A stretch of DNA of 64,000 nt from Deuterostichococcus epilithicus. Taxonomy: Eukaryota; Chlorophyta; Trebouxiophyceae; Prasiolales; Stichococcaceae. This document shows positions 1-48,220 of the stretch, in pieces (position 1 is the stretch's first letter; every line of letters starts with the position of its first letter). A program made the position numbers and the translations under genes. The stretch covers positions 1,178,009 through 1,242,008 of the forward strand of contig JAVTLE010000021.1 of assembly GCA_033439295.1 (NCBI GenBank). Direction: 5' to 3'. The notes beneath the pieces are model-generated. The model was not told where the DNA came from. It was given only the letters and a program-made list of their open reading frames with translations, and did no database searches.

Positions 1-1809
1 TGTCGCTGCTGCTGCCGCTGCCAGAGGTGGGGTTGCCTAAGCTAGAGCAGCCCGCCTCGCTGAACTGGACAGTGCCGTAGCCAGCTTCCATGGACGTTAT
101 GGTATCTGTCACCTGAGCCAGATGTATGGCATGATTTTAGACACACATCCTGAACGGCAAAGTAGGCGTGCAGTCCTGCAAATTGCCCTGCTAGCGGCCG
201 ACACCCAGCTCTCTGGCAGCAAGGCGGTCTTGGCACAATGGCAAAAGTCTCGCTCGTGGCAGCTTGCTGAAGCTTGCTGAGGGAGGTAACGTAGATCCAG
301 CAGCGTGGGACTGAGCACGCACCGCAGCGCCGCAGACTGGGGTGACGGTGATATCCATGGGGAAGGAGTAGGTGCCATGGCTGTTGTGGTACGCCCAGTT
401 GTTGTTGGAGGACCGTTTGAGTGGTATGGAGTTGCCGCCGATGGTGGCGGTCACGGCGGCCACTGGCACCCGGGTGTTGGAGATGACCAGGTTGAAGTAG
501 TAGACGGAGGATGTGGGGAAACTGTAGTACAGCTTGGTGTCGCCCACCTGGTGGAAGGGAGGTGATGCGTCAACACTGCGGGGATGCAGCAATGATGCGA
601 CCACACGTTGACAGGCAAAACCCTCTGGCAGCGGCTGCCAGAGACGGTCCGCACCTGCCGCAGTGCTGTGGCCGGCATCATGCATCGTAGGCCTTGGCTG
701 GCACACCACTGCCTTCTCAGGTTGAAGCACCAACTGTAGCATGTCCTGAGTGCGGCGCACCTGGCAGGGGACGGCGTGCCACTCGACAGTCCAAATGCCA
801 TCACCGACACTGAAACTGCGGGCGAGGTCCAGGGCGCCGGATTTGCACTCCGGGCACACGTTGTCTACGAGGCCGTACTGCCATTCGGTGGAGATCCTTT
901 TGCTCTCAACACCGATGCCGGAGCCTGCGCACAAGGTTGTCGACGCTTCAGGACTGATGTGTCTATGACAAATAAATTGTACGCCGCCAGGCACACGCCG
1001 TCTGCAGGCTACCCTGATGCTGATCATGCCCTCACTGCAGCATTCCTCATGCCAAGTAGATCAGGGAGCAATTGTCACATATTATACGAGCAAGGAGAGT
1101 AGGAGAGGAGAAGAGTGCACCGGTGCCGCGGAACCACACACAGGTGCCGCATGAGGCGGAGCCGTCGAACTGGGCGTTGTTAAGAGCGATGAAGGTGGAG
1201 GGCAGTCCGGTGCCGCCGTCGCTGGCGCCTGCGGGCGCGTTCGACCATGGCAGACCGGTGGTGTCTGCGAAGTTCTTGCCGAACGCGCATGCGCCCCTGC
1301 TGTTTTGGCCGTAGCCGTAGATGGTGCCCTACAGAGCGACAGCAACAATCAGCATATAGCATGCGCTGCCGAAAGGATGTCAACCAAACGACGTCTGACC
1401 CCCACATCATTGATCAGCACTCGACATGTTCACCAAGTCTTGCGGGGCACACTAAGGTGAAGGGCAGCTACAATGAAGTCAAGAGACGCTGATGCTCGAG
1501 TGATGCAGTGAAGAGCCTGCCACCATTCTGGCTTGATCTCTTTGGAGGTTGAGCTGGCTGTGTGAGGCGCCAGCGCACATTGCACAAGGCAATGAGACAC
1601 CAGGTCCGAAATCCATCTGCTTCGGTCAACATCTGGGCGCAAACTCACGTGTGGGGTTTGACGAGATGCGATGCAGTCATGTTAGAGCGTCTCACCGCGC
1701 CGGACTGTGTCGATGATGCCACGGACGACCAGTCGCCCTTGACGGTCGAGAGGGACCCCGCCACCGCCAGCGACGCCACCAGCGCCGCCAGGAACCGGAA
1801 AAATGCCAT
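1..1809 (-). CDS. Expansin-like cell wall protein, 3' partial
   Basis: Exons on the minus strand: 1809-1696, 1328-1121, 924-761, 547-323, and 112 running off the left edge; phases fit throughout. The first exon encodes a hydrophobic signal peptide (MAFFRFLAALVASLAVAGS). Exons 2 and 3 give a double-psi beta-barrel domain with GTIYGYGQNSRGACAFGK and later VDNVCPECKSGALDL and GIWTVEWHAVPC, which are typical of expansins. Exons 4 and 5 resemble the C-terminal expansin (CBM63-like) domain, including a Trp-containing strand (NNNWAYHNSHG). Expansins are secreted, non-enzymatic proteins that loosen polysaccharide networks in cell walls. The true C-terminus lies outside the window. The family is clear; whether it acts on this alga's wall is inference. 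Confidence 0.9.
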
Positions 1810-3623
1810 GATACCGACGCAGATAAGGATGTGGACTCCGTCCACCAGCCAGATACACCGGAGGTGGCTCCTTGCACCGACCTCTGGAGCTCGAGGATCC
1901 TCTTGACGACGTTGAAACGGAGGTGCAGCGGGCCAAGTGGGCGACCTGCGAAGCGGCAGGCACATGCATCAGCGTGTCCGCATGCATACGGCCGCTGGTC
2001 GCTAGGTTGCCTGCTGTCAAGACGCCCCGTCCGCCGCCACCGGTGCGCCCCCGACCGACATGACATAATTGTAATGTTCGCAAGCTGCGGTGCACTAACA
2101 CATTGGGCCTACACATAGGCGGCGGCCGCATGCTATCACCTCTACTTGAGGATTGACAGCAGGTGCATCAGGCGTCGCGCGCCAACTGCGCGGCAACGGG
2201 GTCAGGGTCGGTGACCTCCTGGGGAGACCACTGGAGCTCTGGACTGATCGAGGAGGTGAGCCAACGCGCGGCCCGGAGTTAAGCCGAAACAATGGCATGC
2301 ATCGTACTGATCTTCACCGCGGTGCACGGTGTAACGCTGTCCATCCAAGGAGTCGCGGCATGAGAGGTTCCGGGAAACCGGGGCGTCATGGCGGTGACCC
2401 TTTCTGGACCGTTCACTAAGCTCCTCAGGGCAGGCCCGGCTAGCGTCGGAGCAAGACGCGCATGATACGTTGCCGAAGCACCAGCAGCTGCGTCACGCAG
2501 CAGCATCAGGGCCGCTACATTTGCGTTTTCCCGAGTTCGTTGGGGGCCACAGTCATTTCGCCGCCGGCCTAGTCGGCAGAGCGTGGGCCTACAGCAGCCG
2601 GGCGAAACGCGGCGCTAGGGCCTTGAATATTGTGATTAGTCCCGCTTTTGCTGCTCTGCGCCAGCAGTGCCCCTGCGGAGGGCGCTCGCGCCGGGCCTGT
2701 CGTGCCCTAAGCTAGTACAAAGCGCTGGCGGTGAAGATAGTCGTAAGCGGCGTCTCACCTGGTCAGTCTAAGCCTCTCCGCTGACTTGGCGACCTTGGTT
2801 CGAGCCTACCGCCGTGTGCTTGCTGTGCAGTCTTGCGAAGTGGCGGGTCGTGGACGTCTGCGCAGGCCTGTCCTCGTGAGAAGGCTCGCTCACGTGCCTT
2901 CTTCTCCCAGACAGACCAGACCTCCAGCGTTGGTCCCCCGTGTGATGACGACGGCCATGTGTTCCGACCCTTGTAGTAACATGTAGCCAATCTCAAGGTA
3001 CTAATGCGGAGGTTATCGCTGAAGGTGCTCGACAGCTGGCCCTCGCTCCTATGACAGACTGGGTTACGTGATCAAGAGACCATGCTGTCCAACAAGCAGC
3101 GGTAGCTTCGCATCGCGTGCCTGTACTCTGAAAGCGTCAAGATTTATGTTCTGATCACAAATACACATGTGATGCACAGGATCGGGTCATGCAGGAATGA
3201 GCTGCTGCGGGAGGAGCCGCGGGAGAATTGGCTAGAATCTCCTGTTAACCAGTCCATACGGCTGGTCAACGCGAACACACATACGCATGGGGCAAGCGAG
3301 GGACATTAAAGCAAAGCTGGGTCGACAATGCAACAAATCCAACTGCTTGTCCCCGCAGAAGCTCGTGTCGTCATCATGCTTTGCATGCTGTGCCTGTGGT
3401 TAGGTTACGAAACAACGAATTAGCAGGCTGATTGACACCGCAACAACACCTTCACTCCTTCAGCGTCCAGCTCATTCAAACCACAGTGCCAACGCCAGAC
3501 ATTTGCTAGGTTGGAACGCGTGGACATCCACTGGCACTTCCCGTCACGTGCGTCAGCCGTCTTGATCGGTTTCAGAAAAACTGATGCATCTCGTTGAGGC
3601 TGATCTCCAGTCTCGAAACCACC
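1810..3623. other. Gene-poor divergent intergenic interval
   Basis: About 1.8 kb lies between the start codons of the expansin and the GBP-type GTPase, which point away from each other. I found no reading frame with protein-like composition or splice-consistent exons. Both promoters and 5' UTRs must lie here, but I recognise no specific element. A tRNA-like hairpin at 2727-2814 was examined and rejected. Confidence 0.6.
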
Positions 3624-6600
3624 ATGCTGCGACAAGGGCCGACACGTCGAGGGCCAGTCACTTTTGCGCCAGCACCAGCGTCAGCTATGCTACTGCTGGC
3701 CGTGCTGACCGCGCAATCGACAGCGAATGCCTCCGAACTCCGAAAGCCGTGAGCTTCTCTGATCTGCATTTGTGCAAAGAGAATTTCTTGTCTAGCTGGA
3801 ATGATATTGAGTGGATGCAGCATGCAAGGCACTTGTCGTGCGGCAGTACTTGATGTATGGTGCTGGAGCCGCATGCGGATGTAGATGCAGCTGTGCCGCA
3901 CATCGGCATGCCCACCCTGTTCACAGGTTTGCAGTCGTGCGGCCGGTGTCGGATCACACACAGCTGAAACTGGACCAAGAGGGCCTGAACGTGATCCGCG
4001 CCATCAAGGTCAGAGCTGGATCGTCTCTCTGTTGAGCTGGGCGTGCTCACCGCCCATTCGTTCACGCAGCAGTACAGAAGCAAGACCTCGCCCCCGATCA
4101 AGCGACCTCCACTGCTCTGTTCGCAGGGTCCGGTGATGCCCGTGGTCGTCATAGTGAGTTCCCATTTGCATGCGTCTTGTATGCTTTCTGTGATGGGAGA
4201 CCGTCACCGAAATGCACTTCAGAGCGACATAACTTCTCGTATCCGCAGGGACCGTACCGTTCCGGAAAGAGCTTTTTGCTCAATCAGCTTCTGGGCGTCG
4301 GGTGCAGTAAGTGTTATTTCATCTATGGCTCATCTCAAAGCATTGGGACACACCAGTGATGCACCAACTCTCTTCTGGCCTGACAAGCAGCCTGTGTGAG
4401 GCATGCCCAGTCTGAGCCGCGCCACCTGTCCTGTTGCAGATGATGGCTTCGAAGTTGGGCACACGCGCAGCACGCAAACGAAGGGCGTGTGGTTCTGGGG
4501 GGAACCACGCCGAGTGGAGCTTGAGGACGGTCAGACGGCCTCTGTGCGCCCCCCTTCTGGAGCTGGCACCAGCTTGCATGAGCAGGTCTCGTGACGCGTG
4601 GGCGCTCCAGCGCACAGCCTTCGGCGAACAATGCAGCCCTGCTTATGTCCTGCAATCGCACAGGCGTCAGCCGCCTTCGCCAATTTCGGGACAGAGGCGC
4701 ACTGTTGGATGGGCATCCCTGACAGCGTTCAGCGGCTGCTGCCGCCTGTTGACAGCTTGCGCTTGACGGCTGTCACCCGCATCGACGGCCGCCGCAACCG
4801 CTCGCAGATACTGTACATGGACACAGAGGGCTTCGAGGCGAGCGGCAAGGCGGACGCATACGACGACCGCATTTTCGCGCTGTCCACCGTCGTCGCCAGC
4901 CTGCTGGTGTACAACCTGCCGGAGACGGTGCGGGAGTCCGACGTGGAGAAACTCAGCTTTGCCGTGGAGCTCGCCGACGCCTTTTTTACCGACGCCCAGG
5001 TGTGTCGAAAGATGAGTGGGCTTTTCAGAGATGTCATTAGGGTGTGCGGGCCCTCTGGCGTGAGAGGCTTGCCAACGCCTTTTTCCCCGAGGTTCAAAGG
5101 TGCGTTCAGGTGCCTTGGGTCAGATCGGGGTGGGGTACTTGCACTCTTGGGCGGGGCGCACCGCCTGCAAAGACAGGGCGGCAGCCTGGTCTCCAGGCGC
5201 GCACTCTCGTGGTGGCGTGTCACCGTCATTGGCTGCGGCGCGGCCGGCGCGCCAGCCGCCAGCGGCCGCATTGGCGGCCTTGACGGAGTCTGGCACGCAG
5301 GGCCCAGTTGTCCCAGCGGGTCCCAGCTCCAGATGCCTGTCTTCGACCACCACGCGGCACCTTTGCAGGACGGCGGCGGCAGCGGCAACGGCCTGGAGGC
5401 GGGCAACATGCTGTGGCTCATACAGCGGGACTTCCTGCAAGGCAAGAGTGTGGGCGCCATGGTGGCGGAGGCGCTGGCGCCGCAGCCCAACCCGCACAGC
5501 GACAAGGACATTGACCAGGCGCGTCCGGGCGGCAGGCTTGTGGGGGCCGAGTGCCAGTCACAGGCCTGCTGCGCCGACCGAGCGTGTGTGCGCCGGAATA
5601 CGCCTGAATCAGACCTGCTGCCAAGGGCATGCCAAGCCGCTTGGGCCAGGGACTGCGCCAGCAAACCGAGCCCACCCACGTGCACAAGGCTGGCCTGGCC
5701 TGGCCACCGCCCGACCAGCAGAGTTTTTCAGCTCATGCCCCTTGGTGGGCCCGCCCGCCCCACCGCCACGCCGCCTCGCCTGCCGGCGCGCAGGTGAACC
5801 GCATCCGGCAGTCGCTGTCGCTTATCGCGCGCAACAGCTCAGCCTTCGGGCTGGTGCAGCCACACCTGGAGCGCACCAAGCTGTGCCAGCTGGCGGACTC
5901 GGCGCTGGACCAGCATTATGTGGCGCAGCGGGCGCAGCTGCAGAGCCTGGTCACTGGCCTGGCACGCCCCAAGGTGAGCCCTGTGGCTTGCACGCTTGTG
6001 TGTCTTCCCCCAGTTCCAACTTGGCGAGTGCTGGGCCAGCTGCCGCCCAATGTCATGCACCGGGTCCATCCATAAGGCGCCCAGCTGCTCGCTCTCCCAC
6101 ACCCGATTCCCTCAGAAAGACTCGTCCAGCTGCCCGACTCTGTCCGGCGCGTTGGGCGCAGGCGGTGCGGGGGAGTACGATGACGGGGCCGGACCTGGCA
6201 ACGCTCATAGAGCGCATGGTGTCGGCGCTGAACTCGCGGGACATACCCTCCGCCGGATCCATGCTGGAGTTCTTCAACAAGGAGGTGGGCGTTTTCACGT
6301 ATAAACAGAAAGGCCTGCCTGCCATGGGGCCTCACCGCCTGTGTGGCCCCACGCCAGCTCACCGGCACCATGCACCCACCAGCACACACGCGTTGCCTTC
6401 CCACGTCAGCAGGCCGCTCCGTCGTGTTCCTGTGCCCAACATCAATTGTGTCCCGGTCGCGGGCCTCTTGTCGCAGCCGGGGGCGGTCAACCTCGAGGCG
6501 GCCTGCGCGTTCATTCAGTTGTCGCCACCGCAGCCCTGCCGCGCCACGGGCGGGCGCGCCTGTGCCCTGTGCAGCTGCTGTTGGGCCGCCGGGAACAGCT

Positions 6601-8958
6601 TGCAGTCTGTCCTGTGCACCCGCAGCTGCTATCTGTGCGACGGGACCAGGGAACAGGGCACAGCTCTCGCAGCTGGCGATACCTCAGCCAACCTTTTCTT
6701 AACAAATTTGGGAGTCCTCAGCTACTTTGTCAACTGGTTTGAACTTTGTGCACCTGTGTGCGCAGCTGCTGTTCGCGTGCCGGGACCAGTACGCGGCGCA
6801 GCTGGCGCGGCTGGCGCTGCCGGTGGACACCCCGAAGCTGGAGGAGGCGGCGCGGGCGGCGGGGGACGCCGCCTTTGCGCGCTTCGACAGAGAGAAGTTT
6901 GGCAGCGGGCGCACCAGCGGAGCGGGCGCGCTGCGCGATGCGCTGGCCGGCGCCATCGACAAGGAGCACGAGTGCGGGGCGGAGCGGACCTTCCTGTCAG
7001 ACGACTTCAATGATCAAACTCGCATCATCTGGCCGCCGCTGCAGGGCCGCCCGGCCTGGCGCTGCACTGACTATCCTGTGGGAGTCAGGCATCTGGGCAG
7101 CCCTATTTGAGTGCAGGGGCAGGGGAACATGATCAATTGCGGAGTTGAACAAAAGCACATGGGCACTGGACATGAAAGTAAGATGTGGCAGCGGCCGTCC
7201 AGGTTTGGGGCGGCCACCCTCTCCTGTGCATGCCGCAGTGCGCGCAAGACTGCGAACGTGTACCGCAGCAACCTGGTGTGCGAGGCGGCGGAGCAGGCCT
7301 GCGAGGACGGCCTCGAGGCCGAGCAGCGCATGCGGCTGCCCTCCACCGGCCGCTTCCGGTGCGCCTGATAGCTCGTCAGATTGTCCACATTCCTGCACCA
7401 AAGGCGATGATGGCGGAGCGGCGCATGCGGCTGCACTCCACCGGCCGCTTGCAGTGCGCACCTCTGGCTCTCAACCGCCAGTCGTGTTTGAGATGCATCC
7501 GAAACACGTGCCTGTTCGCACCGGCTGCTTCCGGTGGGTCCCGTTACAGTGTCAGCTTGTGCACCAGCAGGCGGCCCCCGCCAGCCGCTTCTGGTGGGCA
7601 TTCGTTTGCTGTGTTCCGGGCTTGGGCCTGAGAGGTTCTGCAGGGACGTTTGCAGTGCGTGTCTGCATCAGTCGAAGCTGCTGAAAGTGAGGCATGCGGC
7701 GCAGGGCGCGGTACCAGCGGTGTCATGCGACATTCAACCGCACATGCGTTGGGCCCAGCCTCGAGCCACAGGCGGAGCGCCTTGCCAAGGTGGGACCCCC
7801 CCCCGGGGGCCCCCTTTGTGCGACTGTTGGCACTCTGTACAGGCGCCAGCATGCGAGGCAGCAGGTGGTTGGCTCGAAGTCCGCGAGGGTCATCGCATGC
7901 GCCGGGTGCTGCAGCCGCGCCCCGGGTGTGCCGTGCACGCTGCCGGGCACCACCGGGACTCCACACCGCGCGGCACGTGCGCCTGGGGGCGCGGCGCATG
8001 CAAATCCGACCGGGGGCCTGCCAGACGAATGCCATGCCAGCAGTTTACCAGGGCTACATGTTTGCAGGCCTGGCGGCGGGAGGAAGGTCGCTTCCGGCGC
8101 GACTACAACGACAAGTTGTTCAATGGGCTGGTGGTGTTTGCGCTGGCAGACATCCTGCTGTTCCGCTTCGTCGTGCGCATCAGCCTGGCGGAGACGGTCG
8201 GCTGGGTCGGCTTCGTCTTCCTGCAGGCGCGCTTCAGAAGCCCCTGGGCAGGAAGACCCTGGGACCACCCTGAGCCCTGCCCGCCACGCACCGTGGGCAC
8301 TCACATTTCAGCACATAAGAGCAAGGAGTCTGCTCGCCAGCGGTGCCAGAGGCCTCAAGCGACTTGTCAGTCAATGCGTCGAAGGAGTCAGGAGCTGTGG
8401 ACCTTCAGAGGGGCGGCGTTGTAACAAGGTCGTGCGAGGTTGGATGCGCCGATGTTCTGCAAAACAGGTGTACCCAAAGCTGTACCTGAGTGGCGGCAGC
8501 ATGTACGACGCCAAGTGGTGGCTGTGGCTGGTGCGGGGATGGGAGTTGACGGTGTGGAACCCGGTGCTGGACTTGGACCGGTGGGGTCCCATCTTGCTGC
8601 CGGGCGGCATCGCCGCATGGCTGGCCTGGAAGGCCTGGCGGCGCTTTGGCGGCAGCTGGCGGCAGGTGAGACTTGCTTTCATGTTGCGCGCTGCTGCGCC
8701 GCGCCGTGCCTGCGTGCCTTGCATGGGCGATTGCCGATCGATCGCATCATTGAAGGCGCCCTTGGGCGGGGTTCGTAAATCATGTGCATTGTTTTCCAAA
8801 TGGGTTGCACCGTCAGACACAACTGCATCGAAGCGCATTGTGACCTGGGCGCTGACGTCGACTATGATGGGCTGCAGCGGTGGGCGGCGCGGCGGCGGCG
8901 CAGCAAGCGGGTGGTGCCCGCTGGCAGTCATGGCGATGTCCGCGATTTGGACGTGTAG
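3624..8958 (+). CDS. Guanylate-binding-protein (GBP) family large GTPase with signal peptide and C-terminal membrane segments
   Basis: Fifteen exons: 3624-3748, 3927-4008, 4127-4153, 4249-4306, 4440-4543, 4808-4999, 5333-5518, 5794-5973, 6162-6284, 6766-6971, 7239-7358, 7705-7789, 8068-8226, 8468-8665, 8878-8958; 641 aa, all phases consistent. Residues 1-40 look like a signal peptide (MLLLAVLTAQSTANASEL). The G domain shows P-loop GPYRSGKS (79-86), TQTKGVWFW, MDTEGFE (G3) and LIQRDF, the RD motif of GBPs. The middle region continues as the GBP helical domain, with MLEFFNKEQLLFACRDQY in the position of the family's VYNKE motif. The C-terminus has a hydrophobic stretch around 513-545 and another near 590-605, then a basic tail. 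GBPs are self-assembling GTPases that act on membranes; placement in or across the ER membrane is inferred. Two introns (after 5518 and 8226) use GC donors. Confidence 0.88.
5068..5104 (+). repeat. Degenerate copy of GBP exon 6 3' end in intron 6
   Basis: This intronic stretch resembles the end of the preceding exon and its donor (about 4971-5006): both encode a variant of LA(D/N)AFF(T/P) and run into GGTG. Identity is only moderate by eye, so a chance match is possible. Confidence 0.4.
6561..6677 (+). repeat. Two degenerate copies of the intron 9/exon 10 junction in GBP intron 9
   Basis: Copy A (about 6561-6605) and copy B (about 6610-6677) repeat the acceptor and first codons of exon 10 (parent about 6750-6810). 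All three run GTGC, a few bases, GCAGCTGCT, then a CGGGA(C)CAG core; copy B also shares the CGCAGCTGGCG segment. The copies are diverged and not in a usable frame with exon 9. They look like old tandem duplications that left false acceptors upstream of the real one. Confidence 0.65.
7405..7600 (+). repeat. Degenerate copies of GBP exon 11 3' end and donor in intron 11
   Basis: The end of exon 11 and its donor (7312-7365) read GCGCATGCGGCTGCCCTCC then ACCGGCCGCTTCCGGTGCG. A close copy lies at about 7405-7462 (GCGCATGCGGCTGCACTCC, then ACCGGCCGCTTGCAGTGCG). Shorter pieces of the ACCGGC-CGCTTCCGGTG core recur near 7518-7545 and 7576-7600. The closest copy keeps most bases of a roughly 50-base segment. 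Confidence 0.75.
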
Positions 8959-9447: not shown

Positions 9448-12400
9448 TCACTCCGCCTCGGCGCGGTAGTATGAGTTAGGCATCCCTGATAAGCAGACGA
9501 ATGTCGAGTTCACAGGGGATCACGGTGCAGCGTATGTGAATGCACAGCAATCCGTGCACCTTTGTGCTGCATCAGCCGTTGCAGAGAGTGTCCCCTGCTC
9601 TGGGTCAACCAGCGGGTTGGGGTTGGGTGCATGACAGCCGAGACGGCCAAGGCACGTACGGTGAAAGAGCACAGGCCTGATTCGGACCGGCTGCTGCACG
9701 GCGGCGCGCGCCACGTGTCAGACACGATGCCAAAGACGGCGCACCCAGCCAGAACTTGAAGCGCTCGACGTTCTCGTTGGGCGGCGCGCCGTGGGCGGCG
9801 CCGTTTCCCGGCCGCTGCCCGCTGCCGGCGCGGCGGCCGGCCTCCTCCTGTCGGCAGACTTCCGCAAACAGCGCCTTGTACCGATCCTTGTCCAGCTCGA
9901 AGCCGCGCGCCTCCATGGCACGCACCACCTGCGGCGGAATGATCGCAGGGCGGCGTCTGACGTCCAGACAGTGGGCTTGCAGTTGCCTAGCTGAACGCAT
10001 GCTTGCCGGCTGCTGGGCAGAGCTGCGCCCTCCTGGCGTGGCCTGGGCATGCCGGGATGGACCCTCCCTGCGACGCGGGCGGTTTCGGCATAGCGAGCGA
10101 GCGCGCCTGCAGGGCGCGCTGAAAGTCGCGGGCGCGCATGGCGCAGTCCACCAGGCGGTCGTAGATGCGGGCGTCGGCCGCCCCGCCCGCGTCGACCAGG
10201 GTCTGCACCGCGCCCAGCGCCGCCCGCAGCCGCCCCCGCCGGCAGTGCGCATCCACCAGCGCGCCATGCGCCGCCACCGGCGGCGGCCGGCCTGCAGGCA
10301 GCGGACAGGAGAGGGCGGCATGACGGGTTGGCCGCGGGAAATGTCCCAGGTAGTGCCCTGGCGTGGTGCCGTGTGAGACGCGAAATCCGTCAGTCTCCGC
10401 AGCTGGCAGTGGACTGGACTGGTGCAAGCACAGCTACCTGTCGGGCACTGCAGAAGCTGGTGTGCCAGTCTCCTCCAAACTAGTACAGCTGCGGACAGAC
10501 TGGGAGCGTCAAGGACCCCTCACCCTGCGCGGCCGCCATGGCATTGGCGCGGGGCAGCAGCGCGGTGGCCCGCGAGGTGCGGCCGCCATGCGCCAGGGCC
10601 GCAATGACGGCACACAGTGCAGCCTCGTCGACCGGCGCCCGGCGGTCTGCTTCCAGCTGCCGGAAGACGCGCGCCGCCTCGTCGTGCTGCCCCAGTCTCG
10701 AGTGCGCCTGCGGCGGGATCAGGGACGTAAAGGTGACAAATCTGTGTGTGTTTGAGGTGCGAGGGGCGCCTCCAGTGCCTCCACATGGCCAAATCCCAGC
10801 TGTCGCAAGGGACTTTGAATCTGCAGGTCGCACAGGTGGGCCTGACGGATGAGGTTGTGTCGGCGTGCTGAGCGGCGCAGCGCGAGAGGCTGTCGCAAGT
10901 CAACAGCCTGCGCTGCTCGTGCCGCATCAGACTCCCATGGCTTTGGCTTATCTAGGCACGCAGCTGTGCAGGCCGGGCACAGCACCTTGCACACCCACTT
11001 TCAAAACGTTCAGGAAAAAGTCGACAGTGCAGCCCCTCGCCTTGATGAGGCTGGTGTACGTCAGCGTGTCAGGCCGCAGCCCGTCGAGTTGCATGCACTG
11101 CCACAGCTGCACCGCGGCGCCGGGATCGCCGTCCGCGATCGCGGCGCCCATAAGTGTGTTGTAGGAGACTGTATCAGGGCCGGCGTCCGCCACCCGCATG
11201 CGGTGCATCACCCACGCCACGCCCTGCGGCAGCAACGACAGCAGTTGCAGAAGCCCAGCGGCAGCCGTCCCAAAGCCACTTCAATTTGAGGCAGCAGGAA
11301 TCAGCCAGCGGTCCGCAGACCTGCAGTGTTTGGCGCTCACTGCTGCGCAAATTACACCCACTTGGGCATTGAAACTGACTTGGGAAGGAGCAAACCTCGG
11401 ACACACGAGCTGCAGGCCCAGCAGCTGCTAGCGCGAGCAGTGAGCGGGGCGGCAGCGTGGCGCGACGGCCACTCCATTGGCAGCCGATTTTCGCACGACG
11501 GACTTGGAAGCAGCTGGCCATAGCGGCCACGGTATCCCATGCGAGGTCGTAGTACATTTCAGGTGGCGGGTGCGGAGGCACGAGGGCTGAGAAGCGAACA
11601 TGACAGCGCCCCGCATCGAACCAGCAGACGCACCGTGCGCCCGGCGGAGCCCCTGGCAGCGTAGCCGCGCAGCAACACATTCCACGTCACTGCATTGGGC
11701 GACTCTCCATCCGCCTCCATCTGCTGCATCAGCTCCCGGGCCGCCTGCACAAGACACGCGCTGCCCAGCTGACAACCCTCCGCGCAAGCGACCTTATCGT
11801 CTTGCAAGACAGCCCAGCTAAGGGTTTGCGCTGGCTGCTGCCGCTGCTGACCTTGCTCTTGTTGCGATTCTCACCAGTGCAGCTTAGACGAGCTGCAGCT
11901 GCACGATCTGCATCGGGTCATCTCGTGAGCCAGGAGCCAGGGTGACACCAAGCCGACACTAAGCACCTTTAGATTGCCGGCACTGACTTCAACATCCACC
12001 AGGATGGTGTAGGTCACGATGTTGGGCGGCGCGCCGGCGGCACGCATTTCCTCCAGCACCGCTCGAGCGCCCTGCCGGTCGCCAGTCTGCAGGCAACCAG
12101 CATCGCGTGCTGGAATGCGACGGCCAGCAGCAAGACTCCATGCCGCAGCAGTCTTCGAGGCAGCGTTCAGGAGTGACAGTCTTGCACTGAGAGCGCTGGG
12201 GCGAGCGAGGAGGACGCTGGCGACCCAACTTCTGCCTCATTGTGCTCCCTACCCTCCCAGCCAGACAGCAGTGCTTGCCGGTACGTGGCTGTCGCATGGG
12301 TGCGAGTGCCACCTTGAGGCGGCCCTTGAGCAGGGCGGTGTAGGCCCAGGCGTTGAGCTGCACGCCGGCAATGCGCGCCGCGGCGGCCCACTGCGACGCC

Positions 12401-27186: not shown

Positions 27187-30100
27187 ATGGCCATGATGAC
27201 GGTGCGTCTGACATACTTGATAGCTGCTGCTGAATGCTGGAGACGGGCAGAGCAGTTCTGCGGAATGTATCTCTCTCAAAGTGCACGATGTCGTACACAG
27301 GCTCCGCACGCACGAAAGTGGCGTGACCGGCAGCGCCGCGCCAGCCGGCAGCGGTGGCTGCTCACCGGCGGCATTCTGACGCTGCTGGTCCTGTTCCTGG
27401 CCAGGTCAGGCTCAGGACTTCAACCTTTTGTGATCATCCGTGCATAAGCCGGTCTGTATCGCCTGCAAGTGATCTGTTGAGCAGTTGCTGATGTGCTCCG
27501 GTCCACTGGCACAGGCACAAGCTGTACCTGCGACACCCAGAAGGCAGCAGCGGCTCTGCGTCAAAGCCGAGGTCGCTGTCAGCGCTCGACATCGTCCGCA
27601 GGAGGCGAGCCTCTTGCAACGGGTCCTGCCGCACCCTTGACGCAGTGCCCCCTCATGTGCGGTCGCAGGGTCGACTGGAATGCACCGCATGGCCACAGCC
27701 TCGTCATGAGCAGCCACAGCCTGAGGTTCAGCCCCGAACGTCGCAGGTCGCTGCAGGAGGCTGCGCCGCCGGGCGCTGCACTGCACGCCTGGCGCCTGGC
27801 GGTGCTGGTGCCCTCGGGCGCAGGCGCGGGGTGGCAGCGGCCGGCGCTGACGGCGGCACTCAGAAAGGTGGTGCGGCCGCTGGCTCTGGACTGGCACACG
27901 GGGGCGCGCGCGGCGTCCCTGGCGCAGTACTTTGGCGTCGAGGCGCTGCCGGGAGCTGTGCTCGTGCCGCCGTACTGCAGCGTCGCCGAGTGCAAGGTGA
28001 GCTCGCTGCTCCTGAAGTGAACAATGTGGGGGTAGCGGTGGTGATAAGCGCGTCTGAGGGTTGCCCGGTAGGGCTATGGCGCCGAGGAGGTAGTGACCAC
28101 AGCAATGCCACAGTACTGAATGCGCTGCAGCGGCAGGAGCATCACACAGGAAGCATGGCCCGAGTGCAACCACTTCATGTTTGCAATGGTAGGCACCGGC
28201 CGTGTGGCAGCGGCGCACAGAGACGGCGGCCTCACCGGCTGAGGAGCTGTCGGAATGGATCGTGAATGTCTCGCTGGCGTGGCTGCTACTGGCCAATGAC
28301 GCCAGCAACCCAGTGCGCTTCACGCGGCGGCTGCAAGGCAGTGCGCCGGACGGCAGCCCAGACAGCGGCGCCGAAAGCGACAGCGACAGCGGCAGCGGCG
28401 ACAACGACAGCGGCAACGGCGACAGCGCCAGCGGCAGCGATGCAGAGGATGCGCCGACAACATCGGCAAACCTCACTGAGCACATGCTGGAGGCTGGTGG
28501 GCGACTGTGGGTCAGAACGCCCTTCCAGGTACTTCTTTCTCAGTGCAGGCGACACCGACTGCACCGCTAGCTCGTTCAGGTTGCCGCTCCAGAAGCTCCG
28601 CCACGCTGTACAGACAACATTCGAGCCCGCAGCGCCACGCAGCCTGGGGTAGGTGGCTGATGTGTTGAGAGCAGAGCAGAGCAGAGCAGAGCAGAGCAGA
28701 GCANAGCAGAGCAGAGCAGCGCAGAGCAGAGCAGAGCAGAGCAGAGCCGAGCCGAGCAGAGCAGAGCAGATTGCAGACCTTGCGCTGCAGCCGGGGCCAC
28801 AGAGTCACCTTGCCGAGGTCACATGCCGCAGGCCACCTGGACGGCCGTGCTGCAAAAGGGCGGCGACAACGCGGACCAGCCGCTGGCGCGGCACGTCGTT
28901 GTGGGGGACGCCATCATCACGGCGCGGCAGCCAGGGCAGTGCAACTTCTTTACGGAGCCTGGTTGCGAGCTGGCGCGCCCCAACAAACAGTTTCCGGAGA
29001 AGACGCTGCAGGTGTTGTCCCGCCAGCACTACCCCGTGTTGTGATGATTGATTTTCTGGGCCGAGGGCTCTCGGCTGTCTGCTTGACAAGCCACACAGCC
29101 CCTTTCTCGCCGTTCGATGCAGCCACGCCTGCAGTGTCCGTGTGACCAGTGAAAAGTCCTGTGGTGCAGGCGAGGGAGGAGGCGGAGGCAGCGCGACTGG
29201 CGGACATCCGCAACCAGAGCACCACCATACGACAGTACACGCCCCGCGGCTTCGAGAAGCGGCGGGCGCCGCCAGCGCTGTTCCACAGCCTGCACTCCTA
29301 TTTCGAGGTGTGGCGGCGCTATTGTCTGCTGTCCCGACCTATGTTGTTGCTCCAGAGATGCTGCTCAATGCCGCGGCTTCCGGCCGATCAGCTCAAACCC
29401 TGCATCCGGCTCGCCAGCTCGAGGCATGAGACTTCTGTGCAACTTGTCGGCACGATGCAATCCCTCCACCGCCCTCCATTGCTTCCTCGAGATGCTGACA
29501 TGCCTGAGCCGCGCGGACAGCGACGTGTCCTCTGATGGCTCGCAGGCGCATGCCGCAAACTACTCCAGGGAAGACTGGGAGGACGAGGACATCTTCGTCA
29601 ACCACGACAAGGCCCAGTTCCTGCTGGTGAGCCTGCCTCACTGAGCAGTCAGGTGCCGGCCTGGACTTCTGCACCTGCCCTTGATTGCCGGCCAGTGGCA
29701 ATGCGGCGCGAATGTTGACTGTCTGAACATGCCTTGCTGCAAGATCTCCCCAAGCTCTCTCCTGCATGAATGCTTGGTGTTCTAAGGAATGAAACCCTGC
29801 AGATCGACATCCCGGAGCTGGGGCCCATGCGGCCGGCGATATTCGCAGCGGTGCAGCCGATCTTCGAGGCGTGGGCGGGCGGAATATCGTTGCAGGCGAC
29901 CGCCATATACGGCGTGCGCGTGTACACCCGCGGCTGCGAGCTGCGGGACCACGTGGATGTGGCGGAGACACACCATGTGTCCGCCATCGTCAACATCGAC
30001 CAGGTGGGGTTTCGACTGCCACTTTGTGCCAATTTCAGTTGGGGCCTTTCGATTTTCAAAGACGGACCAGCTGCCAGATTTAGACGCTCAAAGAGGTCTG

Positions 30101-36217: not shown

Positions 36218-39200
36218 TCAGGCGGCAGACTTCTTTTTCTTCTTCTGCGGGTTACAAATCGACAGTCGTCAGCCGCTGTTGTCAGAAAAACTTCGCAGGT
36301 CCGAGGGCACTGAACAGACCCACCACAACCATCTATTTTCTGTTGAAAGAAATGTCTTACGCACCTTGACCGGCTGCTCGCCGTCTGCCTCCTCCGCTGC
36401 CGCGCCCGCCTCGAAATACCGGTCTGCCTTCTTCTTCTTCTTTTTCTTCGGCGCCTCCTCCTCTGCCTCGTCTGCTGCAGCCTCCTCCTGCGATGACCAA
36501 GGCCCGCAGATTGAGCGCCGCAGCTCAAGTTGGTATGCTGCCCTCCATGCAGGAGGCTTGCCGACCAGCAGGGGCAGGCAAGCACCCTGGGCAGGCACAC
36601 GGTTTGCCTGCAAAAACGAAACACTGCGAACAGCAGGGCTGCCCACCTCCGCGGCGCGCTTCTTCTTCTTCTTCGGCTTCTCGGCCGTGCCATTGGCGGC
36701 CTCGGCAGCGTCCGGCACACCGTGCACCACCGCCTCCTCCACCTCTGTCAGCTTTGCCTTCTTCTGCAGGGCCGAGCACACTGAATGCCTCAGGCACATT
36801 GGTGGCGCCAGGGCGAACGTGATGCCAGACGGACAGCGCAGCGAACGCCACACCGAACGCCAGCCGAACGCGAGCCCTGCCGCAGGTGCCTGGTGCCCAT
36901 GCCCGCCGTGAGGTGCAGGACAGGAGTGCTGTGGAGGGGCCAGCCGTGAGACCCGTGCCCGACTATGCAGACAGGCCCCACCTTCTTCTTCTCCTCCTTG
37001 CTGGCGGTGGCGGTCACGTCGGCGTCAGCGTTGTAGGCCTTGGCCTCCGAGGCGAGGCCCGCGGCAGCGCCCTGCTGCGCCCTTTCGTACTTTTGCGGCT
37101 CCGCCTTGCCGGCGGGCGTCGCCGCTTGCTGCCCCAGGTCCCGCCCCTCCATCTGCCGTGCCCGCGCCTCGATCTGTAGCACAGGCCGGAGCGCAGGCGC
37201 GTCACCTGGAGGGTCTACGTGATGCTCCAGTGCCGAGCTTCACTGTTTGTGAGAATGTCACTTTCGTTCCCCCCCCTCTCCCCCACTGGGGCCTTTGCCG
37301 GAGACACACCCGTCCAGATCCTTGCTTCGCCGCAGGGAAGTGTGCTGCCAGGTAGACCACGAGCTTGTGGCTGCAGTTCCAGAGCGGCTGGCGAACGTGG
37401 GGCCGCGCAGCTGCCAACAGGAGTCGCAGTCTGGGGATTCATGTCGCCCCCCTTCAAAACTGCTTCAGCCATCACCACCTGGGCAGTCGCTGGGCAGCTC
37501 TGTAAGAAGGCTCGAGTTTTGTGTCTCGCTTGCAATTAGAATTCTCCACACAAGGTTGCAGTGTCGGCAATGAGAAGGTCCTGCTGCACGTTCTGGTGCC
37601 GTGAGTTCGGAGCCTGTCAAAGTCGTGAGGACGGCGTAGTGCGATTATGTCACTGCAGGCCTTCAATCTCGAGCGCCCTTGTGCTGCCTTGCGCGGCTGA
37701 TCGGTTTCGTGAGAATTCGATGCAGGCTCAGATCGGACGCTTCCAGCCGAGGTTTCGTTGAATCTTGGGAAAATCTGAGCAAAGATGCCCACCTTGGCGC
37801 GCGAGGTGATGCCGATGGTGGCATCGTCCGAGGTGCCCATCGCGTCGACGCGCGTCGCGAGCGACGCCTTGGCGGCCAGGATGCGAGACATTTTGCCCTT
37901 GTTCTTGGGCGCTGCCTGCCCGATCAGGCTGGCGTGGTAGATCAGCCCATACTTGGGCGTTTCGTGCTTCGTCTTCAGCGCCCGGAACAGCGCCTGCACA
38001 TTTTGGCAGCAGCACGTCATGTCTGCAGCTGCAGCGCCCTGGAGCTGCGCACTGGCTGTTGCCGTGGCAACCAGCCATCAAACTTGCTCCGGTCACCTCC
38101 AGTAAAAACAACTGGACATCATGCTTTATGTCAAGCTCTGCTGACACGGGTTCCAGGCTTCGAACAGCTGCCACGGCGGTCTGTGGGTCGGGCAGGTCAT
38201 TCGCCAGGCGTCCTGCATGCCTCGAGCAGTTTTGGGGCGCAAGAACCCAGATGGTTCCCACGAAAAAGGGCACCTTTTCGGCGCCCAGGATCTGCACGGT
38301 GGAGGCCGGGTACTTGGCGAGCGTCATGAGCGACCCTGCATGCGCGATGAGGCGCGCGCCCACCAGCTCGCCGACCAGCACCGTCAGGTTGGGCGCGATC
38401 GCCGCCATGCGGCTCTTCAGGTACTCGTACAGCTGTGCCCGGTACTCCGCCAGCTGCACCACCTGCACGAGTGGAAGTTCCAGATATAGATTTCCTGTAG
38501 CGAGGATGCTGGATTTTCCACCACCGCCAGGTGCACCACCTACACGCAACTAGAAATCAGTGCGAGCAAGAGCCAGCACATGCCTGTGGGGCTGCTTTGA
38601 ATGCAGTCGCAATCCTGCTGCTTCGGACACGCCTTCCGGCCAACGCCCTCCACATTTCGTCGTTTACCCCGGGGGGATGGCAATAGCGATGCAATGCTGG
38701 GAGCTGTAGGAGGTGCATGTTCTGACTGCACCCTTGGCCGCCGCTGCGAGGATGTGCCCCCAGCTGCAGCCTCGCCGCCGCATGACATCCGCAGCCCCTG
38801 GAACCGCACCAGTGAGATCAGAAGGGGTGGCTCGGCATGGCAGCGTGGCGCGGCTCGGGCCCCACCTGGTCGCACAGCGCGGTGATGTTGGACATGTCGT
38901 CGGCGCTGATCTCTGTGCCCATGGAGATGGTGGCGATCTCCTTGAGGTCCGCTGCCACCTCCTCCTCCAGGATGCCCTCGAAGTCTGTGTCCGCCGCGTT
39001 CTCCCGCGTCTGCATGTGCTTCACCTGCAGGGTTGCGTGGTATTATCTCAGTGAACAGGCTGGCTGGTTCCTTACCAGATCCGAATTCTCGAAGGACATT
39101 TGAACATCCCAATCATGCACTGTGATGGGCGGCGCCCAGTCTCCTAGAACGCTGCAGCAAGCCAGGCTGACGGCGCAGTTATGACCGGCGGCAAACTGCG

Positions 39201-47379: not shown

Positions 47380-48220
47380 TCAACTCGCAGCTTGCAGGCC
47401 AGCCACCACGATGCCGATGACCAGACTGAGGTACGAAAAGCCCTCTGCGAAGCACATCAGCTCACTTCAGCAAGGTGCTTGAGCGGAACTGCACAGACGA
47501 GCAGGGACAAGGCAGACATGAGCAAAGACAGGGGATTACCTGCCGCGCCCAGCAAGCCGGCTGGCCCAGCAGGCAGGCCACTGCCGGTCTGCTTCTTCGT
47601 GTACAGGCTCCACGCGACGAGCCCGACAATCACCAGGTACGACACGCCCTCTGCACAGGCTTACAGCGTCAAGGTGCGAAACGAAAAGGACGCGACGAGA
47701 CATGTATACACAATCAGGTGGAAGGCACGCATTGACAGATGGAGAACCTACCTGCCGCGCCGTAAGCGCCGCCAGGACCAGGCGGCAGTCCAGACCCTGC
47801 GCAACGATGGGGCTCGCCAGATGAGACATGCAGCCACCATCAAGAAATAAAGGCCTGTCATGCACTACTCCATGATGTCACAGTGCGCACCTGTAGTGGC
47901 TAAGGTGTACTCGCTGATCAAAACAATCGGATTGGCCACCAGACCCGCAGCGGCTGCTGCCAGCCCGACGGCACCGATGTCACTGCTCTGCTGCGCCCGA
48001 GGAGCTGCGGCCGCAGTACGCGGCCGCACCGCCCTCAGGCATGGACGCACTGCACCAGAGAATTGCGTATTGAGACAAATGGCAACAGCAATGCGTCGGA
48101 AGCATTGTCCACACATGCATGTTTCCTGCAGGGACCTGTGGTGAAAGCTGCGCGCTGCGAGAGCGGCCCCAAGTTGCAGGCAGGCAGCACGCGCAGCTGG
48201 AATGTGCAGCTGGCGCTCAT
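47380..48220 (-). CDS. Small predicted plastid membrane protein with duplicated GLPxGPxG-EG(V/F)SYL module
   Basis: Five exons: 48220-48136, 48049-47891, 47796-47752, 47650-47540, 47444-47380; 154 aa and all phases fit. The first 65 residues are basic and Ala/Arg/Ser-rich, a likely plastid targeting sequence. Three hydrophobic segments follow: IGAVGLAAAAAGLVANPIVL, VSYLVIVGLVAWSLYT and FSYLSLVIGIVVAGL. Two near-identical linkers, SGLPPGPGGAYGAAEG and SGLPAGPAGLLGAAEG, each lead into one of the last two segments, so the C-terminal half is an internal duplication. I recall an uncharacterised plant plastid family with the same layout but cannot name it. The ATG at 48220 is the first in frame. 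No catalytic motif is visible. Confidence 0.8.

Follow-up and report, generated by a model that had tools for sequence, protein, structure and literature searches.

Roughly one in 10–13 of the introns sampled from this genome contains a degenerating copy of a neighbouring exon's end, in the same direction and about 100 bases away from it. The preliminary description of the locus had pointed to such copies in the introns of one gene, predicted from its sequence to encode a GTPase of the guanylate-binding-protein (GBP) type. The pattern is not special to that gene.

Copies of exon ends in the introns of the GBP gene

The window, i.e. the whole stretch of 64,000 nucleotides that was analysed (G000:C18:1178009-1242008), belongs to an assembly of 46.8 Mb in 21 contigs. 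The GC content is 57–65% across the window and the fetched stretches, and single 2-kb bins of the window range from 57 to 68%. In the GBP gene, the frame of exon 6 matches Pfam GBP, and the frame of exon 4 translates to GPYRSGKSFLLNQLLG. A second gene with a GBP domain is located in the same genome at G000:C12:2197467-2199032 (minus strand). The splice junctions are predictions that combine a self-trained gene finder, the Pfam GBP match on the exon 6 frame and the reading frames at the junctions. The gene finder was trained on a 232-kb sample (the final round yielded 448 exons and 409 introns), and it learned the donor consensus CAG/GTGMG and the acceptor consensus YGCAG/G (the slash marks the junction). 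The gene models used are those from a training with a higher intron cost. GBP exon 12 was set by hand to 7706-7806 for several tests, and its frame gives 7705-7789, which was used for the edge analysis. Owing to the hand-set start, the printed score of acceptor 12 is one base off, and this score was not used.

In the junction test, the body of each intron was searched for similarity to its own last 60 exon bases and first 10 intron bases (mirrored at acceptors), with a match scored as +1 and a mismatch as −1.5. For the GBP gene this covered both sides of eight introns, 16 sides in total, with the introns upstream of exon 6 left out. Three sides, in three of the eight introns, were positive, and the other 13 of the 16 had no copy of the flanking exon by this test against shuffles. 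Equal similarity in shuffled introns, which had been named beforehand as the outcome that would speak against the copies, was not seen, as none of 300 dinucleotide shuffles of each positive intron reached its best match.

Intron 9 (6285-6765) indeed contains the two degenerate copies of the exon 10 acceptor that had been described (Table 1). Copy 1, which no shuffle equals, carries TGTGCAG at the junction, and copy 2 carries CGCAG. An additional piece at 6657-6678 is weak, and its score of 12.0 stays below the 12.5 that shuffles reach. For intron 11 (7359-7704), one close and two short copies of the exon 11 end with its donor had been proposed; the close one and one of the short ones stand, and the second short one is borderline. 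The source at 7317-7364 consists of the final 42 nt of exon 11 and 6 nt of the donor, and 300 shuffles of the intron top out at 12.5, below copy a, which has a donor-like GCA/GTGCGC at 7454. In intron 6, the weak match to the end of exon 6 that had been suspected was also recovered, with a shuffle maximum of 12.0. As the preliminary description had expected, the copies retain splice-like sites, and the five putative decoys of the GBP gene, donors at 7454, 7534 and 7594 and acceptors at 6575 and 6626, have splice-site scores of 2.9–6.5, inside the range of real sites.

Table 1. Predicted exon ends and their intronic copies, and young pairs with their properties. Positions are those of the window, except for the L-numbered stretches.
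Feature	Position	Strand	Evidence and properties
Exon 6 end, source of the intron 6 copy	4969..4992	+	exon ends at 4999
Intron 6 weak copy, exon 6 end	5067..5090	+	83% over 24 nt; score 14.0; offset 98
Intron 9 copy 1, exon 10 acceptor and first codons	6568..6598	+	81% over 31 nt; score 16.0; offset 191
Intron 9 copy 2, exon 10 acceptor and first codons	6621..6678	+	79% over 29 nt (6621-6649); score 14.0; offset 138-140
GBP exon 10 (predicted; 3′ end uncertain)	6766..6995	+	gene finder, frame; source of the intron 9 copies at 6759-6789
GBP exon 11 (predicted)	7239..7358	+	gene finder, frame; source of the intron 11 copies
Intron 11 copy a, exon 11 end and donor	7412..7459	+	48 nt; 90% identity; score 35.5; offset 95
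Intron 11 copy b (short), CACCGGCTGCTTCCG/GTG	7519..7536	+	score 15.5, shuffle maximum 12.5; offset 175
Intron 11 copy c (short, borderline)	7575..7599	+	score 12.5, equal to shuffle maximum; offset 235
Acceptor junction and exon start in another predicted gene (exon 38274-38462)	38447..38469	-	gene finder
Copy of the 38447..38469 junction in the upstream intron 38463-38865	38524..38546	-	91% over 23 nt; offset 77; AG kept
Young pair, GBP intron 11			48 nt; 90%; sharp on both sides
Young pair	L013 9767		41 nt; 95%; sharp on both sides
Young pair	L020 434		45 nt; 91%; sharp on both sides
Young pair	L020 2240		30 nt; 93%; sharp on both sides
Young pair	L024 2127		31 nt; 100%; sharp on both sides

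Prevalence in the sampled genome

In addition to the window, the 232-kb sample was made up of one 8-kb and sixteen 10-kb stretches, and it contained 359 introns with usable flanks, 356 of which were tested (three were too short). At a score of at least 13, donor-junction copies were found in their own intron in 12 of 356 cases and acceptor-junction copies in 19 of 356, where length-matched pieces taken from other introns lead one to expect 0.57 and 0.67; at a score of at least 16, there were 7 donor and 13 acceptor copies with 0.0 expected. Altogether, 28 of the 359 sampled introns bear a copy (1.2 expected), a number that includes one low-complexity case, a proline-rich repeat at the donor of L022 8019-8349. 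This case was taken out of the donor profile, the codon counts and the length test; it is still counted in the 28 introns and in the 32 pairs of the flank test described below. In a validation set of fresh 40 kb (four stretches, with the model fixed), copies were found in 6 of 59 introns, or 6 of 118 tests, against 0.47 expected. The screen of introns against their own flanks that had been suggested for the genome gave an excess in both of these samples. More than one copy is present in several introns, namely GBP introns 9 and 11 and introns in L016, L020 and L024.

The copies are almost all in direct orientation. In 830 tests, which cover 418 introns minus three that were too short, 37 copies were direct, 1 was inverted and 3 were reversed, so that inverted templated insertion was rejected. 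Exon sequence located 62–125 nt away from the junction had copies in 3 of 483 tests. Local direct matches with a score of at least 18, simple repeats included, numbered 97 at a spacing of 30–180, compared with 4, 0 and 0 in three bands at 1000–3150. Gapped matches with a score of at least 25 numbered 22 (1.75 expected) and were 31–151 nt long, and none of these 22 was a copy of a whole exon.

Size, edges and decay of the copies

In the 32 exon–intron pairs, the offsets range from 77 to 326, with 24 of the 32 at 77–165; in the validation set they range from 64 to 125. Offsets of exon–intron pairs fall into all classes modulo 3, and those of exon–exon pairs are multiples of three in 9 of 11 cases. 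Protein repeats were therefore rejected as the origin of the exon–intron pairs and accepted for most exon–exon pairs. The cores of the 32 pairs have a mean length of 34.9 nt, 85% identity and a score of 20.8, and the listed copies are 73–95% identical to the exon, with one exception at 100%. The six young pairs displayed are sharp-edged patches of 30–50 nt, separated by spacers without homology. Of 25 spacers tested (7 of the 32 lie outside 25–150 nt and were left out), 6 match local DNA directly, with 0.6 expected, and none in inverted orientation; it is as if several local copying events had accumulated.

Copy-bearing introns are longer than ordinary ones, in agreement with the preliminary description (median of 369 versus 233 nt, p = 1e-10; 34 introns, including 6 from the fresh 40 kb and GBP intron 11). 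When the offset is subtracted, the median falls to 250 nt and is indistinguishable from that of ordinary introns (p = 0.50); when only the copy is subtracted, it is 337 nt and still different (p = 2e-8). The longest quarter of the sample (90 introns) holds 23 of the 28 copy-bearing introns. The copies thus sit in long introns, and together with the length tests this indicates an excess length of approximately one offset.

Many copies end close to the position that corresponds to the splice site. Edges of 20 of 31 pairs lie within −3 to +14 of it, when random placement within 60 nt would give 7.0, and none of the 31 pairs extends beyond +14; among the 12 youngest pairs, 6 have edges near the junction. 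In this analysis, two assignments were made by hand: the L020 exon end was placed at 470, with a GC donor, and L013 9889-9927, a predicted 39-nt exon, was taken as a copy. AG or GT is kept in 12 of the 14 listed matches that cover it, a count biased by the choice of matches by similarity, and the identity of donor-type copies does not peak at the splice site. At L013:9889-9927, the exon-end copy follows an acceptor-like TGCAG and keeps its donor, and it is called by the gene finder; to judge from these signals, it could be a cassette exon of 39 nt. At L020:470, a helicase exon apparently ends at a GC donor (CAGCAG/GCGCGC), and its intron copy retains the GC. A 20-nt pair at 47429-47448 and 47635-47654 of the window (offset 206) starts with the donor-like AGGTACG and lies outside the called exons, and it possibly consists of an uncalled exon end and its copy.

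Intronic copies decay near-neutrally. Mismatches between copy and exon number 48/326 (14.7%), 45/324 (13.9%) and 67/325 (20.6%) at the three codon positions; 89 of the changed codons are nonsynonymous and 42 are synonymous, and stops make up 4 of the 310 codons copied. On our reading, the third-position excess of ∼6% is the exon's own silent change, so the copies evolve at least at the rate of silent sites. In 26 cases a CpG of the exon stands opposite CA or TG of the copy, and in 12 cases the reverse holds. The decay at a silent-site pace and the loss of CpG from exon to copy argue against function and for copying from exon to intron, which we take as the probable direction; the decoy splice sites are probably unused. 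The suggestion that the copies might serve as alternative exons gained no sign in their favour, and coding duplicate exons are likewise unsupported, with mismatches nearly flat over the codon positions.

Exon ends appear to be over-represented beyond what decay alone predicts. When random patches of 30–60 nt followed by decay were simulated, 0.45–1.0 intron–intron pairs were obtained per exon–intron pair, whereas counts by intron were 5 versus 25 (with 5, p = 0.08 for a ratio of 0.45 and p = 0.0005 for 0.95). These counts used a milder low-complexity filter, as the filter of several other steps, the edge and modulo-3 counts among them, also drops long matches (L019 4019-4098 is lost). One of the 5 intron–intron cases is a 5-nt array and one a copy–copy pair, and three were judged genuine. 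The simulated short patches placed 36–40% of edges within −3 to +14, compared with the 20 of 31 observed. Several repeats of other types were seen alongside: an array of ∼20 copies of the 5-nt unit AGAGC in a predicted intron (window 28668-28770), a short minisatellite in another (L025:6529-6620) whose unit contains ATGCATCAGAGGTATGGC-like sequence, and an identical 29-nt pair with an offset of 187 at both L023:1956-2171 and 9750-9965. Its recurrence 7.8 kb apart marks this last pair as belonging to a dispersed or duplicated element.

Origin of the copies and relation to known systems

The explanation that we favour, at about an even chance, is recurrent short-range duplication on the same strand, of the 'spaced' or partially tandem kind. 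A patch of ∼20–70 nt would be copied to a site mostly 80–165 nt away, and the copies that survive would lie in introns. Selection would hold the exon copy and the intron copy would drift neutrally, leaving a recognisable echo of the exon; the host intron would be lengthened by about the offset, and copies that span a junction would bring a decoy donor or acceptor along. The process would have its origin in DNA repair or replication. Three observations stand against this model: the added length equals the full offset, which is unexpected if the patch alone is inserted, unless several events accumulate; intron–intron pairs seem too few; and the edges are too tight at splice sites.

Ordinary tandem duplication of a junction-crossing unit of 95–150 nt, with the intronic half decayed on both copies, would explain the direct orientation, the offset-sized lengthening and, as the limit of constraint, the splice-site edges. 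In this case, homology should persist in the flanks. Next to the copy and next to the real junction, it was detected at p < 0.05 in 0 of 32 pairs; when the simulation's own statistic was applied and the flank was cut to the extent of the expected unit, 1 of 32 fell below 0.05 and 4 of 32 below 0.2 (the first test counts ties fully and the simulation by half, and acceptors only were simulated). Simulated tandem units gave a flank signal in 37–67 of 80 cases (46–84%) at K 0.2–0.25, values that bracket the length, identity and score of the observed cores, although the signal weakened to 19–25/80 at K 0.3 and 3–9/80 at K 0.4. Young pairs with 90–100% identity also lack a flank match. The full-unit simulation placed 46–57% of intron-side edges beyond +14 and a simulation with 30–60 nt patches 10–15%, against the complete absence observed; both the flank and the edge simulations are toy models in which indel rates and constraint were assumed. 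Flank and edge results together are thus fitted better by short patches of 30–60 nt, and a full tandem unit is disfavoured and seems to us rather unlikely. Of the tandem duplication across splice junctions that had been proposed for this locus, decayed direct copies that span the junction are confirmed, and a whole unit including the intron part is not. Full-unit duplications also happen, as shown by L019:4019-4181, where a predicted intron contains a near-complete 83-nt tandem duplication (80 of 83 nt matched at 89%, 4019-4098) that is readily visible. The shortage of intron–intron pairs and the tight splice-site edges indicate that something beyond ascertainment may favour exon ends. A process specific to exon ends would copy a piece of exon bounded by the splice signal into the intron next to it, on the same strand and across a spacer of ∼40–110 nt; it would be linked to splicing or transcription and act as a main source of long introns. 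We regard it as unlikely, though it deserves to be kept in mind. The same two features and the exon-end source would also fit copying linked to splicing or RNA, such as repair of the transcribed gene that reuses pre-mRNA fragments delimited by splicing factors. We consider this quite unlikely, as half of the 12 youngest copies lie off the junction, no result points to an RNA step and the sample is small.

Another possibility is that the copies are what remains functional of old duplications and that selection retains them because they act as decoy or regulatory splice sites, as pseudo-exons or as aids in long introns. The edges that stop at the splice signal, the retention of AG or GT (biased as noted above), decoy scores like those of real sites and the location in long introns are in line with this idea, but divergence at least as high as that of silent sites (14% at positions 1–2), the CpG loss and the donor-type identity, which is not maximal at the splice site, make it improbable. 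That the pattern stems from chance or low complexity, or from errors in the assembly or the gene models, is disfavoured and very improbable. The gene models were self-trained on sequence alone, and L022 8019-8349 is a repeat; however, the shuffle, other-intron, reversed and inverted controls speak against such a source, the divergence of the copies shows that they are not duplicated assembly, and Pfam domains run over junctions of copy-bearing introns. Among ten predicted proteins, seven were submitted to this check, and domains crossed the junction in four genes (GrpE, Cupin_8, MTPAP-like with PAP_assoc, and Glyco_transf_90); for the other three, the domain stopped short of the junction, the copy was weak or the exon end was doubtful. 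A dispersed or mobile element of the introner type is unsupported, in line with the preliminary description, which saw no known mobile-element pattern: GBP introns 9 and 11, searched against the 46.8-Mb genome, had no match outside the locus, which is not proof of rarity, and three spacers were likewise unmatched elsewhere. For intron gain, to which such duplications had been suggested as a route, no case was seen, and gain by AGGT duplication does not fit offsets that mostly stay at or below 165 when the median host intron is 369 nt long and the copies lie inside introns.

Intron growth that does not involve transposons is poorly understood, and introns in this genome seem to lengthen via short local copying. 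With the exon as a slowly changing reference, single growth events become visible, can be ranked by age and can be counted in one genome. A genome-wide exon-end bias would implicate a mutational process linked to splice sites; without such a bias, the copies would still allow short local duplication to be measured cleanly. The decoys offer natural tests of spliceosome choice among near-identical sites. Introners occur in algae. A 2010 paper by Blanc et al. on the Chlorella variabilis NC64A genome reportedly mentions exons repeated in adjacent introns; if this is true, the pattern is already known in this group.

The intron-rich genes, the exon and intron sizes and the GC content seen here resemble those tabulated for Chlorella-type green algae (table in PMC6972661). 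Among the matches listed in literature searches, titles and abstract openings do not describe exon-end copies in introns of green algae, and the available parts of papers on Coccomyxa, Chlorella vulgaris, Chlorella protothecoides and chloroviruses do not mention the pattern. Introners share with our case the copying of sequence associated with introns (PMC9860276, in the part available), whereas no genome-wide family was found here in five queries. In the potato RdRp gene (PMC4974935) and in Drosophila (PMC2891723), introns are described, in the excerpts available, as gained or changed by tandem duplication over an intron–exon boundary. The likeness is that the duplication crosses the junction and carries splice signals; here, however, an existing intron becomes longer, none is new and the unit is a spaced patch. 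Pseudogenic, i.e. decaying, exons are reported in 0.4–1.0% of mammalian genes (PMC2718932), and Exonize detects exon matches in introns (PMC12343006). As far as the accessible text of these two sources goes, both concern degenerate exon copies within introns of the same gene, and both are exon duplications; the copies described here decay neutrally in the same way, whereas they are not complete exons, being partial ends, mostly of 20–70 nt, in ∼8–10% of the sampled introns. In rice, partially tandem duplications and duplications from a nearby donor (insertions of 10–1000 bp) have been attributed to imprecise repair of breaks (Vaughn and Bennetzen 2014, as summarised in PMC7407515). According to that summary, they are short, local (within 200 bp), partly spaced, possibly with several donors, and expand the genome. 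The pairs studied here likewise are short direct copies near their source with an unrelated spacer, and they differ in the apparent excess of exon ends, the edges at splice sites and their older-looking ages. By this comparison, the closest known kinds appear to be the spaced local duplications of rice together with decaying exons in introns. The phenomenon is of a known kind, and its prevalence is unusual.
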